From Terriglobus albidus (lineage in GTDB: Bacteria; Acidobacteriota; Terriglobia; Terriglobales; Acidobacteriaceae): a stretch of DNA of 64,000 nucleotides. The notes under the pieces were generated by a model, which worked only from the letters and a program-made list of their open reading frames with translations, was not told the DNA's origin and did no database searches. The stretch is taken from contig NZ_CP042806.1 in NCBI RefSeq assembly GCF_008000815.1, positions 3,038,001-3,102,000 of the forward strand, written 5' to 3'. This document shows, in pieces, positions 52,595 through 61,808 of the stretch (within the stretch, counting starts at the first letter, position 1; the number at the start of each line of letters is the position of its first letter). A program made the position numbers and the translations under genes.

Positions 52595-54826
52595 ATGACT
52601 CGTGAGCAATTGGAACTTGCGCGGCGTCGCGCCTTTGGGCTAGACAGCAATGCGCTTTTGATTTTGGAAGATGCCAATGCGTGGGTTGACCGCATGGGAC
52701 TCGTTCTGTGGACGCCGAAGACGCAGCTTGCTGCACCCGCCCCCGTCTTCGTTTCAGCGGTAAGTGGAGTTGCGGAACCTGGAGTAGCCGAGGCAGAGGC
52801 TGGAAAGCAGATGCTGGGCCGGCTGGTTCGTGAGGGAGCGGCGGTGCCGTTACTCCTCCTTGGAGGCGCCGCCCCCGGCGATATTCCAGATTTTGTCGTG
52901 AGTGCAGCCGCGCTGCCTTATCTCTACACGCTGCGTGGCGACAAGAACTGGAAGGCAGCCCCGGTGGCTTCGTCTATCTCGCCGCTCGCAATGAAAGTCT
53001 GGGGTGTGTTGAAGGCCAAAGGGCCGCAGACCGTCTCCAACCTGCTTCCGGAGCTTGGCCGCGAGCTGACGCACGCCGCCGTGCTGCGTGCGCTGAGCGA
53101 GTTGTGGGCCATGCTGCGCGTGATCCCGGTGTACCAGGATGGAGAAGAAGAGACCCAATGGGAGCTGCTCACAGCGCGGTTTACCAAGCAGATCAAGGCC
53201 GGTGGCAATGCCGGTGTGCCGACGGCCCTCTCGGCCATGATCTCGCTGTATCTGAGCGCGGTGCTGGTTGCGGAGCTCGATGAGATTGAGGTGTTCCTCT
53301 CGCCGCTGGTGGCGCGCTCAAAGGTGCGTGATGCGGTTAGCGGTTTGAATGCTGCCCGTCAGCTTGACGAAGTGGTGCTCGAAGGCAAGACGCTGCTGCA
53401 TATTCGCGGCGAGCTGCCTGAGATGCCGGAGATTGTTCCGGTCGAAGTTCCGGAGGGCGTGGCTGAAGAGGGCGTCGATGTTGGCGATGTCGGCGAGGCC
53501 GAGCCTGATCGCGAGGGCCTGCTGGAACGCGCTCGTCAACGCACCGAAAAGACCTTTGCCCCAACTCGCCGTCCCACCGACCGCAGGCCGTCCCGCGAGG
53601 GAGAGCGTCCTGCCCGCAGGAGCTTCCGTCCCGAAGAAGGCGCCGCCGGCGGTGAGCGTAAACCGTTCCGTCCGCGTCAAGAGGGCGAGGGAAGCGAGCG
53701 TCCAGCACGCCGCAGCTTTGGTGGAGAGCGTGACCGCAAGCCTTTCCAGCGCAAGCCATTCGATGGTGAGCGTAAGCCTTTCCGTCCGCGTGAAGCGGGT
53801 GAAGGTGGTGAGCGTCCAGCGCGTCGCAGCTTCGGTGGCGACGGTGAGCGCAAGCCGTATCAGCGTAAGCCGTTCGATGGTGAGCGTAAGCCCTTCCGTC
53901 CGCGCGAAACGGGTGAAGGTGGTGATCGTCCAGCGCGCCGCAGCTTTGGCGGCGACGGCGAGCGCAAGCCGTATCAGCGTAAGCCATTCGATGGTGAGCG
54001 TAAGCCCTTCCGTCCGCGCGAAACGGGTGAAGGTAGTGATCGTCCAGCGCGCCGCAGCTTTGGCGGCGACGGCGAGCGCAAGCCGTATCAGCGTAAGCCA
54101 TTCGATGGTGAGCGTAAGCCCTTCCGTCCGCGCGAAGCGGGTGAAGGTAGTGATCGTCCAGCGCGCCGCAGCTTTGGCGACGGCGAGCGCAAGCCGTATC
54201 AGCGCAAGCCGTTCGATGGAGAGCGTAAGCCCTTCCGTCCGCGCGAAGCGGGTGAAGGTGGTGAGCGTCCGGCCCGCCGCAGCTTTGGTGGCGATCGTGA
54301 CCGCAAGCCGTATCAGCGGAAACCGTTCGATGGCGAGCGTAAGCCATTCCGCAAGCGCGAAGAGGGCGAGGGCAGTGAGCGTCCGGCCCGCCGCAGCTTC
54401 GGCGGTGATCGTGACCGCAAGCCGTTTCAGCGGAAACCGTTCGATGGCGAGCGTAAGCCGTTCCGCAAGCGTGAAGAAGGCGAGGGGGGCGAGCGTCCGG
54501 CGCGCCGCAGTTTTGGCGGAGATGGTGACCGCAAGCCATTCCAGCGCAAACCGTTTGATGGTGATCGCAAGCCTTTCCGCAAGCGCGAAGAAGGAGCGGG
54601 AGAAGATCGTCCGCGCCGTACCTTCAAGGCTGACGGCGGTAAGCCATCCTTCGGTGGCAAGAAGTTCGGAGGAGCTCCAAAGAAGTTTGGTGGAGCGCCC
54701 AAGAAGTTCGGTGGAGCGCCCAAGAAGTTCGGGTCGAAGCCGGGTGGAAAAGCCGGAGCTCCGAAGAAGTTCGGTAAGCCCGGAGCCGCGAAGCCGTTCC
54801 GTAAAAAGCGGGAGGGTGATGAGTAA
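52595..54826 (+). CDS. Winged-helix-like protein with eight near-identical basic 38-residue repeats
   Basis: The 743-residue protein has two parts. The first ~330 residues look globular, with a winged-helix-like segment near 130-200 (ISPLAMKVWGVLKAKGPQ, AAVLRALSELWAMLRVIP); they faintly recall the YcaQ/AlkZ family, but this is uncertain. From about residue 350 there are eight nearly identical units of 37-38 residues plus a partial one. Each holds GERKPFRPRE, GERPARRSFGG and RKPYQRKPFD variants. A KKFGGAP-repeat end follows. The tail is strongly basic and disordered, likely binding RNA or DNA. Its stop overlaps the cmk start by one base. Confidence 0.8.
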   Translation: MTREQLELARRRAFGLDSNALLILEDANAWVDRMGLVLWTPKTQLAAPAPVFVSAVSGVAEPGVAEAEAGKQMLGRLVREGAAVPLLLLGGAAPGDIPDFVVSAAALPYLYTLRGDKNWKAAPVASSISPLAMKVWGVLKAKGPQTVSNLLPELGRELTHAAVLRALSELWAMLRVIPVYQDGEEETQWELLTARFTKQIKAGGNAGVPTALSAMISLYLSAVLVAELDEIEVFLSPLVARSKVRDAVSGLNAARQLDEVVLEGKTLLHIRGELPEMPEIVPVEVPEGVAEEGVDVGDVGEAEPDREGLLERARQRTEKTFAPTRRPTDRRPSREGERPARRSFRPEEGAAGGERKPFRPRQEGEGSERPARRSFGGERDRKPFQRKPFDGERKPFRPREAGEGGERPARRSFGGDGERKPYQRKPFDGERKPFRPRETGEGGDRPARRSFGGDGERKPYQRKPFDGERKPFRPRETGEGSDRPARRSFGGDGERKPYQRKPFDGERKPFRPREAGEGSDRPARRSFGDGERKPYQRKPFDGERKPFRPREAGEGGERPARRSFGGDRDRKPYQRKPFDGERKPFRKREEGEGSERPARRSFGGDRDRKPFQRKPFDGERKPFRKREEGEGGERPARRSFGGDGDRKPFQRKPFDGDRKPFRKREEGAGEDRPRRTFKADGGKPSFGGKKFGGAPKKFGGAPKKFGGAPKKFGSKPGGKAGAPKKFGKPGAAKPFRKKREGDE
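53651..54600 (+). repeat. 114-bp tandem repeat encoding the basic 38-residue units
   Basis: About eight copies of a 111-114-bp unit lie head to tail within the gene at 52595-54826. Neighbouring copies in the middle (near 53885-54170) differ at only a few bases, while the outer ones differ more. This suggests recent expansion in the middle. Every length change seen is a multiple of three, so the frame is kept. The repeats also create long spurious frames on both strands. Confidence 0.85.
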
Positions 54827-57164: not shown

Positions 57165-57977
57165 ATGCAGCACCCGAAGATCAGTATCGTCATTCCCGCG
57201 TTCAACGAGCAGGCGCGTATTGAAAGAACCCTGGACCGCGTCCTGAGTTGCGTGAGCGACCGGGGATGGGATGCTGAGGTGCTGGTCGTCGACGACGGCT
57301 CTACCGACCACACGCCCGCCATCATTAAGCGGTGGATGGAGCACCATCCAGGTCTCAAGCTCATCCATAATCGCGGCAACCGGGGGAAGGGCTACAGCGT
57401 CCGCAACGGACTGTTGCAGGCTGCCGGCGAGATAGTGATGTTTACCGATGCCGACCTGTCGGCCCCGATGGAAGAGGCGGAACGGCTGTTCGCCGCCCTG
57501 GATTCCGGCGCCGATGTGGCCATCGGTTCGCGCTGGCTGGAGCGCCAACGGCAGACCATCCATCAGCCGCTGTACCGGCGTTTCTTTGGACGCTGCTTCA
57601 ATGCCATGACGCGCCTGGTGATGGGACTTCCGTACAAGGACACCCAGTGCGGCTTCAAGGCCTTTCGCCGCAGCGCTGCACAGGTCATCTTCCGGCTGCA
57701 GCGCATCGAACGCTGGGGCTTCGATCCGGAGATCCTTTTCATCGCCCGCAAGCTCCGTTACGTCGTCCGCGAGGTTCCGGTGACCTGGGGCCACGATGAG
57801 CGGTCGCAGATGAGCTACCTGAAAGACGGGGCCAAGATGCTGGAGGAACTGGCGATCATCCGCTGGAACTCGCTGGTTGGCCGGTACGACAAAGACATCG
57901 CTGCCATGAAAGACACCAGCGGCATGGTGACACCACAGGTGGAGCGTCCAGTGCCGGTCGAAGCTGTACGGCGGTAA
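57165..57977 (+). CDS. Family 2 glycosyltransferase, polyprenyl-phosphate glucosyltransferase-like
   Basis: The 270-residue protein opens KISIVIPAFNEQARIERTLD, with VLVVDDGSTDHT and the metal-binding FTDADLSAPMEEAERL. It continues with GLPYKDTQCGFKAFRR and WGFDPEILFIARKL, typical of dolichyl- or undecaprenyl-phosphate sugar transferases of the GT2 family. No C-terminal membrane helices follow, so it would act at the cytoplasmic face. The sugar and acceptor are not certain. Confidence 0.9.
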   Translation: MQHPKISIVIPAFNEQARIERTLDRVLSCVSDRGWDAEVLVVDDGSTDHTPAIIKRWMEHHPGLKLIHNRGNRGKGYSVRNGLLQAAGEIVMFTDADLSAPMEEAERLFAALDSGADVAIGSRWLERQRQTIHQPLYRRFFGRCFNAMTRLVMGLPYKDTQCGFKAFRRSAAQVIFRLQRIERWGFDPEILFIARKLRYVVREVPVTWGHDERSQMSYLKDGAKMLEELAIIRWNSLVGRYDKDIAAMKDTSGMVTPQVERPVPVEAVRR

Positions 57978-58053: not shown

Positions 58054-58818
58054 CTACTCCGCGAAACGGCAGCAGCTGATCCAGCACGTTGTTGGCTGGG
58101 TGAGCAGACCGTTATCGCAGAATCGATGAAAGAACTCCTCCAGCGCATCGATAAACGCCGCATGGCGCGGGTCGCCGGGCAAGGGAGCCATGGAGTACGA
58201 CATCGCCTGGCCGGTCAGGGCCTCCAACGTGAGTTGTTGCTCGCCGGCAATCGCCGTCTGGCGAACCTCTCCTCCGGGGAATAGCGTCTCCAACCTGTCA
58301 TGCACGCGATAGCCGTCGCGGACGTAGCGGTAATCGGTTCCATGCGTGGTGAGCAGCGACTCAAAGGCCTGCGAGAGAGGTGAGTCATTCTTCGATCGCC
58401 CAATGCTGACCATCGCTACCCAGTGCCCGGGCTTGAGGATGCGCTGAAACTCCGGAAGCGCCCGCGCGTGATCGAACCAGTGAAAGGCTCTGCCTGCTGT
58501 TATCAGATCGACGGAGTGGTCAGGGAGCGTTGTCGCTTCGGCCGTGGCGTCGATAAGGGTGAGGTTCGGATGCCTGCCGCACTGATCCGCGCAGGCAGCC
58601 CGCATCTCGGCGTTCGGCTCGATGGCGATGGTGGGATTGCCGTTGTCGAGGAACAGCTCCGTCAGCATGCCAGTGCCGGCGCCGATATCGGCGACCGTAT
58701 CGCCGGAGGTCAGGCCGATCCACTCACGCAAAATACGCATGACCTCGGATGCGGGATAGCTGAGCCGGTACTGTTGATAGGCGGCAGCGCGGCCTGTGAA
58801 GCGTTCGGTATGGCCCAT
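58054..58818 (-). CDS. Class I SAM-dependent methyltransferase with multiplied start sites
   Basis: Motif I is VADIGAGTGMLTELF, followed by IAIEPNAEMRAAC and the LDLITAGRAFHWF-like region, typical of class I methyltransferases. The core begins with MGHTERFTGRAAAYQQYRLSYP at 58818. Three in-frame 48-bp repeats upstream each add MGRTEQFTD plus seven residues, giving possible starts at 58962, 58914 and 58866. GAGG lies five bases before the ATGs at 58914, 58866 and 58818, but not before the first. I annotate the conserved start. The gene follows ccmD and may be on the ccm transcript. The substrate is unknown. Confidence 0.85.
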   Translation of the reverse strand: MGHTERFTGRAAAYQQYRLSYPASEVMRILREWIGLTSGDTVADIGAGTGMLTELFLDNGNPTIAIEPNAEMRAACADQCGRHPNLTLIDATAEATTLPDHSVDLITAGRAFHWFDHARALPEFQRILKPGHWVAMVSIGRSKNDSPLSQAFESLLTTHGTDYRYVRDGYRVHDRLETLFPGGEVRQTAIAGEQQLTLEALTGQAMSYSMAPLPGDPRHAAFIDALEEFFHRFCDNGLLTQPTTCWISCCRFAE

Positions 58819-58962
58819 GGCCGCCTCGAAGTGACTAGCGTCTGTAAATTGTTCCGTACGGCCCATGGCCGCCTCGAAGTGAGTACCGTCTGTAAATTGT
58901 TCCGTACGGCCCATGGCCGCCTCGAAGTGAGTACCGTCTGTAAATTGTTCCGTACGGCCCAT
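58819..58962. repeat. Three tandem 48-bp repeats carrying a start codon and ribosome-binding site
   Basis: On the minus strand each 48-bp unit reads ATGGGCCGTACGGAACAAT through CTTCGAGGCGGCC and encodes 16 residues beginning MGRTEQFTD. The units are almost identical; the third differs at the DGTHF/DASHF codons. A fourth, diverged partial copy forms the gene start at 58818. Because 48 is divisible by three, copy-number change keeps the frame. Confidence 0.9.
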
Positions 58963-58975
58963 GGCCGATTAGGTG

Positions 58976-59074
58976 TTAACGGGTTTTTCGCCAGCGATTC
59001 AGGGCAAAGAGAAAGTAAGCCGCCTGGATTCCCAGGACAAACGCATAGGCAAGGACAAGGTGACGATGCGCCAT
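58976..59074 (-). CDS. ccmD: CcmD-like heme exporter subunit (32 residues)
   Basis: The ATG directly follows the ccmC stop codon (TAGATG). The product MAHRHLVLAYAFVLGIQAAY plus FLFALNRWRKTR has one membrane helix and a basic C-terminal end, as in CcmD. Position after ccmC and size fit. CcmD links CcmC and CcmE during heme delivery. Confidence 0.7.
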   Translation of the reverse strand: MAHRHLVLAYAFVLGIQAAYFLFALNRWRKTR

Positions 59075-59767
59075 CTAGATAGCCTCCTGCAGTTCTGCCA
59101 GACGCTCCCGGCGGGCACTGATGAGCCGGAAGCCGATCATGATGCAGCCCCAGAGAAACCAGCCGGCGAGGTTCCAAAGGAAGGCTGGGTACATGGACTT
59201 ATCCAGGCCTGCACCGTCACCTCCACCGAAGACGGGGGAGGGATGCTGGGTGCGGAACCAGCGGATGGAGTAGTAGACGATCGGGACATCCACGGCTGCG
59301 AAGACTGAGAGAACGGATGCGAGGGTTGAGGTCTGGCCCGGAGGCGAGAAACGGCGCAGCAGCAGGTAGCTGACGTAAAGCAGCCACAATAGAAGAAAGG
59401 TGGTCAGGCGTTCATCCCACGTCCACCAGATACCCCAGGCGACGCGTCCCCACAGGGAGCCAGTGACCAGGCCGATGGTGCAATAGACCGTCGTAATCTC
59501 GGCTCCGGCAAGAGCAAGCGCATCCCAGGCCGCGGCCTTGATCTCGTCCTTACGACGGAAGTAGAGATAGCCGAGCGCGCCGATCAGGTTTATGTATGGA
59601 AAGCAGAGCGCGGAGATGGCCGAAGGCACGTGGTAGTAAAAGATGCGGTAGACCTCTCCCTGCTGGGCGTCGACAGGGGCAACCATCGCCTTCTGAAAGC
59701 CGATGATCAGGATGAGAATCGTCGCGAGGAAGAGTGCGATTCCGGATGCTTTTTTCAGGCCTTGCAC
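59075..59767 (-). CDS. ccmC: Heme exporter protein CcmC
   Basis: The 230-residue membrane protein has six hydrophobic segments and the Trp-rich heme-handling motif VAWGIWWTWDERLTTFLLLW of the CcmC/CcmF family. A conserved His is in IFYYHVPSA near the N-terminus. It presents heme to CcmE for c-type cytochrome assembly in the periplasm. The start codon is GTG. It lies 83 bp after ccmB and immediately before ccmD. Confidence 0.92.
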   Translation of the reverse strand: MQGLKKASGIALFLATILILIIGFQKAMVAPVDAQQGEVYRIFYYHVPSAISALCFPYINLIGALGYLYFRRKDEIKAAAWDALALAGAEITTVYCTIGLVTGSLWGRVAWGIWWTWDERLTTFLLLWLLYVSYLLLRRFSPPGQTSTLASVLSVFAAVDVPIVYYSIRWFRTQHPSPVFGGGDGAGLDKSMYPAFLWNLAGWFLWGCIMIGFRLISARRERLAELQEAI

Positions 59768-61714: not shown

Positions 61715-61808
61715 GCGCTACGGAAGAGTATAGGTGTTTCGGCGAAGGGATGCCCGCCTGACGGTTACGATGATCCTGATAGGTACGATGATGCTGAGAG
61801 GATGCACG

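Follow-up and report, generated by a model that had tools for sequence, protein, structure and literature searches.

The methyltransferase gene at 58962-58054 (minus strand) of the 64,000-nucleotide stretch analysed here, hereafter the window, opens with a tandem array that is a genuine in-frame expansion of the gene's own start region. We consider it quite probable that an older duplication across the junction with the preceding gene was followed by a recent slippage-type expansion, tolerated as a frame-neutral, disordered tail. Rather than a proven control device, the expansion is probably the result of an everyday copying error.

The repeat array and the gene that carries it

TRF places the array at 58803-58967 of the window (period 48, 3.4 copies, 96% matches), with a score of 302 compared with a best score of 70 in 50 dinucleotide shuffles of the window. 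The units form the first 144 bases of the gene, which encodes 302 amino acids and lies directly 3' of a ccmD-like gene; an in-frame TAA (58971-58969, minus strand) stands three codons 5' of its first ATG. Unit 1 (58915..58962, minus strand; MGRTEQFTDGTHFEAA) opens with ATG1 at 58962, which no Shine-Dalgarno (SD) sequence precedes. Unit 2 (58867..58914, minus strand; ATG2 at 58914) is identical to unit 1, and unit 3 (58819..58866, minus strand; ATG3 at 58866) differs from both at 2 of 48 positions. The initial annotation had described three near-perfect 48-bp units before the methyltransferase core, which we recover (0 and 2 differences), and a diverged fourth, which proves to be only the first 27 nucleotides of the core (58792..58818, minus strand; ATG4 at 58818). 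This segment is the parent of the unit's first half and matches the units at 21 of 27 positions (6 differences), whereas over 48 nucleotides 21 positions differ.

A GAGG, a five-base spacer and an ATG had been attributed to every unit. The combination GAGG-CGGCC-ATG does occur at 58914, 58866 and 58818 (GAGG at 58923-58920, 58875-58872 and 58827-58824, respectively) and is absent at ATG1 of unit 1 (58962). The up to four in-frame starts are all present on the minus strand (ATGs at 58962, 58914, 58866 and 58818), and a change in copy number would indeed keep the frame because 48 bases are 16 codons. The unit is a multiple of three, repeated head-to-tail in an open frame (48 bp, 3.4 copies, no stop), and we take the array to be an in-frame coding minisatellite, or intragenic tandem repeat.

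A dispersed repeat or mobile element was ruled out, since the array has one match in its own genome and its 27-nucleotide half-unit occurs nowhere else among 398 genomes of the family. A genome-wide habit was rejected as well: in a TRF survey of the window and 20 stretches of 20 kb at even spacing along the genome (together 464 kb out of 6.4 Mb; period at least 9, score at least 50, open frames of at least 100 codons), 1 of 43 rows, some of which represent the same array, combined at least two in-frame ATGs with an SD in an open frame. Two other arrays of the window were noted. The one at 61766-61801, with two copies of an 18-bp unit, is in frame with a peptidase-like gene, presumably of the M20 type, immediately before its probable start, and repeats an ATG (TMILIG TMMLRG CTMK); none of its three in-frame ATGs has an SD by the survey's test, and it is older, because two relatives, MAG SH_60_12 and a genome designated G015, keep a diverged form. 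The other (53651-54590; about eight copies of a 114-bp unit) is located within the C-terminal half of a 743-amino-acid open reading frame and encodes a low-complexity tail rich in R, K and F.

The core (58054..58818, minus strand; 254 amino acids) encodes a class I SAM methyltransferase of the Methyltransf_11 family (Pfam E 6.8e-17), scoring 62.3 bits against PF08241, for which the curated cut-off is 21.2; 4hg2 is a sequence relative in the PDB (E 4.4e-15). None of the 16 NCBIfam families listed for a named substrate subfamily reached its cut-off, the best being BioC with 53.4 bits versus 184.95. In an AlphaFold2 model of the 302-residue protein (44 sequences), pLDDT stays below 50 throughout residues 1-48, a stretch that coincides exactly with the three units, and is at least 90 for 247 of the other 254 residues; the 48 added residues are predicted to be an unfolded or disordered tail before an intact enzyme. 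Compared with Terriglobus albidus DSM 26559, the core has a dN of 0.078 and a dS of 0.652 and, on the resulting dN/dS of 0.12, is under purifying selection. The ratio relative to MAG SH_60_12 is 0.22 for the core and about 0.5 for the unit, whose 16 codons are too few for a decisive value.

Upstream of the methyltransferase, on the same strand, Pfam identifies ccmB and ccmC, the latter encoding a cytochrome c assembly protein (59075..59767, minus strand; PF01578, E 4.8e-29). The small membrane protein gene between ccmC and the array (58976..59074, minus strand; 32 amino acids; stop at 58978-58976, 13 nucleotides before ATG1) is assumed to encode CcmD from gene order and size. On its other side the methyltransferase gene is bounded by a convergent glycosyltransferase gene (57165-57977). 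Both the ccmD-like frame and the glycosyltransferase are found at this place in T. albidus DSM 26559, MAG SH_60_12, G015 and a further relative, G017. Relative to T. albidus DSM 26559, ccmC (59075-59767) has a dS of about 2.1, as against 0.43 for the glycosyltransferase and 98.7% identity for CcmB. This discrepancy suggests recombination, with ccmC as a mosaic point.

Unit number in relatives and origin of the unit

DNA of the ccmC-ccmD-gene region was matched in 18 of 19 genomes of the genus, the window's included, and the core protein (E at most 1e-30) in three: the window's genome, T. albidus DSM 26559 (NZ_JAGTAS010000024.1) and MAG SH_60_12 (JAEKKE010000325.1). In T. albidus DSM 26559 the ccmD stop is followed by 12 nucleotides and then ATGGGCCACACG, with no extra unit. 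In MAG SH_60_12, one diverged unit lies 15 nucleotides after the ccmD stop and leads into the core, with no GAGG before the second ATG; this unit differs from that of the window at 9 of 48 nucleotides (6 counted as nonsynonymous, 3 as synonymous), and the gene is frameshifted by a 2-nucleotide deletion that is either real or an assembly error. Copy number is variable among relatives (0, 1 diverged and 3 units in three genomes, one per species). G015 retains the start ATGGGCCGTTCGGAAC (about 16 nucleotides), joined to sequence resembling the region past the stop of the T. albidus gene, and the gene was therefore lost by deletion. G017 has ccmD and the glycosyltransferase, with no match to the methyltransferase between them.

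The initial annotation had also suggested looking for the unit in homologues. In an even sample of 398 family genomes from a larger group, the 27-nucleotide half-unit (at most 3 mismatches) was found in one, the window's own, at three places, and in none of the other 397. The starts of 48 homologous loci were also compared (12 of the 16 places of one homologue search and 36 of the 74 loci of another, leaving out the window's own locus, the second copy in T. albidus, the three loci of the MAG and 37 further loci, mostly shorter partial matches). All 48 have an ATG, GTG or TTG between codons -15 and +1 relative to the core methionine, and no ladder of starts at -16, -32 or -48 appears among the last six starts listed for each locus, which rules out an ancient family feature. 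Given the counts in relatives, the single genome with the half-unit and the starts of the homologous loci, the ancestral state was most likely one with no unit.

The branching order of the three genomes bears on this reading. Distances from the window place MAG SH_60_12 and G015 nearest for ccmC (dS 0.23 and 0.25, versus 2.1 for T. albidus) and the MAG nearest for the methyltransferase (0.38, versus 0.65 for T. albidus). Glycosyltransferase distances are about equal (0.43, 0.43 and 0.44 for the MAG, T. albidus and G015) and do not decide the order, although G015 is close to the MAG by this gene (dS 0.12). The absence of units from T. albidus could thus be a loss, since the order rests on ccmC and the methyltransferase.

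A single tandem duplication as the source of the unit would imply that the linker, the final 21 nucleotides of the unit, derives from the 21 nucleotides that preceded the ancestral ATG. The MAG linker and the 21 nucleotides upstream of the G015 start share 10 identities and the same purine/pyrimidine class at 20 of 21 positions; for the window linker the values are 10 and 18 of 21. Across 464 kb of the window's genome, the MAG values were reached by 0 of 14,335 21-mers preceding ATGs and by 6 of 927,160 21-mers overall, and the window values by 11 of 14,335 and 355 of 927,160, respectively. These frequencies need to be read in the light of the 12 linker pairings tried, of which those with G015 gave the best fit (16-20 of 21 by class), and both this choice and the 11 equally good 21-mers weigh against the reading preferred here. 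Other upstream sequences agreed less well, with 15-17 of 21 for the window's own and 11-13 of 21, near chance, for T. albidus and the MAG's own. The comparison moderately supports an origin by duplication of sequence spanning the ccmD/methyltransferase junction, at a time when the window's species and the MAG had not yet diverged.

On the preferred explanation, a 48-bp segment made up of 21 nucleotides upstream of the ATG and the gene's first 27 nucleotides would have been duplicated in the ancestor of the window's species and MAG SH_60_12. The near-identity of the units suggests that the duplicate was later copied twice more in the window's lineage, by slippage or unequal recombination. The copies would have survived because 48 is a multiple of three, no stop arises and the 48 residues form a predicted disordered tail before an intact enzyme. 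Recent replication slippage, one of two possibilities raised in the initial annotation, is thus well supported, as near-identical units occur only in the window's genome, with none in T. albidus DSM 26559 and one diverged unit in the MAG.

Translation starts and rival explanations

With the 16S tail of this genome, CACCTCCTTT, anti-SD pairing energies are -1.7 kcal/mol at ATG1, -7.1 kcal/mol at ATG2 to ATG4 and -10.3 kcal/mol at ccmD; GAGG alone accounts for -5.0 kcal/mol, and ccmC and ccmA lack an SD at their presumed starts (0.6 and 0.5). The three starts credited with good ribosome-binding sites do have such sites, but their quality was overstated: -7.1 kcal/mol is moderate and is equalled at 11% of the 119 ATGs found, in any frame, inside seven genes of the window. 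The additional SDs are genuine, if moderate, and initiation at more than one AUG is possible. In units 1-3 (region 58859-58967) a 5-bp GC stem without mismatches is predicted to close around each AUG, leaving it as a three-base loop (CGGCC-AUG-GGCCG; -7.0 kcal/mol in isolation); at ATG4 the stem has 4 bp and -4.6 kcal/mol. Such 5-bp hairpins surround 19 of 14,341 ATG triplets in the 464 kb, those of the array included. An AUG in a GC hairpin should weaken initiation. A single-sequence fold of the leader leaves ATG1 more open than the other starts; it half exposes the GAGG of ATG2 and ATG3 and pairs that of ATG4. By eye, the same hairpin is visible in the G015 remnant, and T. albidus has 3 bp.

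The sole start in T. albidus DSM 26559 has no SD; coupling to ccmD is therefore the likely route of initiation there and, judging by position, for ATG1 as well. Ribosomes finishing ccmD would most likely restart at the nearest AUG, which is ATG1, the position used in relatives, and would yield mainly the 302-amino-acid form; some internal initiation at the AUGs led by GAGG is likely. ATG1 as the main start has against it the lack of an SD and the GAGG sites, which are stronger on paper. Under the preferred explanation the multiplied starts would be a by-product.

The second possibility raised in the initial annotation, a variable tuning device, would let the number of units set the number of initiation sites and thereby both enzyme level and the proportions of the different N-termini, with slippage reversible and the frame intact. 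It accords with three in-frame AUGs each led by GAGG at 5-nucleotide spacing, with their pairing energy relative to ATG1, and with the presence of GAGG in all three window linkers and its absence from the MAG linker, a gain of SDs that could hint at selection and so counts against the accidental reading. The predicted hairpins and the paired SD of ATG4 point the other way, as do the internal ATGs of equal strength and the frameshift or deletion of the gene in two close relatives; unit number, moreover, is seen to differ between species. The device is left without positive support, and we regard it as unlikely. A rheostat for translation, in which slippage would add or remove one whole in-frame module at a time (an SD and a hairpin-loop AUG) and so alter enzyme amount and N-terminus stepwise with no shift of frame, seems to us quite unlikely.

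The remaining alternatives concern the peptide, the fate of the gene and the assembly. Decay in progress, with a gene dispensable in the clade and an expansion that marks relaxed 5' constraint, would fit the 2-nucleotide deletion in the MAG, the remnant in G015 and the lack of a match in G017; it is very unlikely given an intact window gene with a core dN/dS of 0.12, and the MAG frameshift could itself be an assembly error. Selection of the 16-residue unit as an N-terminal domain for binding or targeting is highly improbable: the frame stays open through three units, but the residues are predicted to be disordered, the half-unit DNA is confined to one genome of 398, the homologous loci show no 16-codon ladder, and 6 of the 9 differences in the MAG unit, within a frameshifted gene, are nonsynonymous. 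Short identical repeats can be mis-sized, yet a wrong unit number is extremely improbable for a short array (165 bp), whose unit 3 differs from units 1 and 2, in a genome assembled as one contig (6,405,582 bases, 99.74% complete), the more so as a separate MAG also carries a unit.

Known systems and significance

In-frame coding minisatellites resemble the array in their multiple-of-three unit, near-identical copies, between-species differences in copy number and added repeated residues; unlike them, the unit here holds a start codon, SD-like sites lie from one unit to the next, and the variation known here is between species. Variable tandem repeats in coding sequences have been reviewed (PMC3899988, in excerpt). 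According to excerpts on lic2A (PMC4235727) and modA (PMC3899988) of Haemophilus and Neisseria, these phase-variable genes, too, combine 5'-terminal repeats with alternative potential starts. Their units are non-triplet (four bases in modA), so that repeat number shifts the frame, and genes of the lic2A type have their initiation codons in different frames 5' of the repeat; the 48-bp unit here, a multiple of three, keeps the frame, contains the start and does not belong to this class of switch. Direct TAACTGA repeats just upstream of start codons in Beggiatoaceae (PMC4679880, in excerpt) are likewise tandem repeats at translation starts, but comprise many heptamer sets per genome, mostly intergenic, whereas here a single locus lies inside the frame. 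Among the matches listed for repeats and starts, no title or abstract opening reports a bacterial start codon multiplied, together with its SD, by tandem repeats.

The four in-frame starts make start-codon annotation of the gene ambiguous. If the repeats did tune initiation, they would represent a counterpart to phase variation in which the frame is kept, although nothing found requires it. On the preferred explanation, the locus would be a clear example of a bacterial gene that acquired an N-terminal extension when its start region, located at an operon junction, was duplicated and then expanded, with intermediates in relatives.
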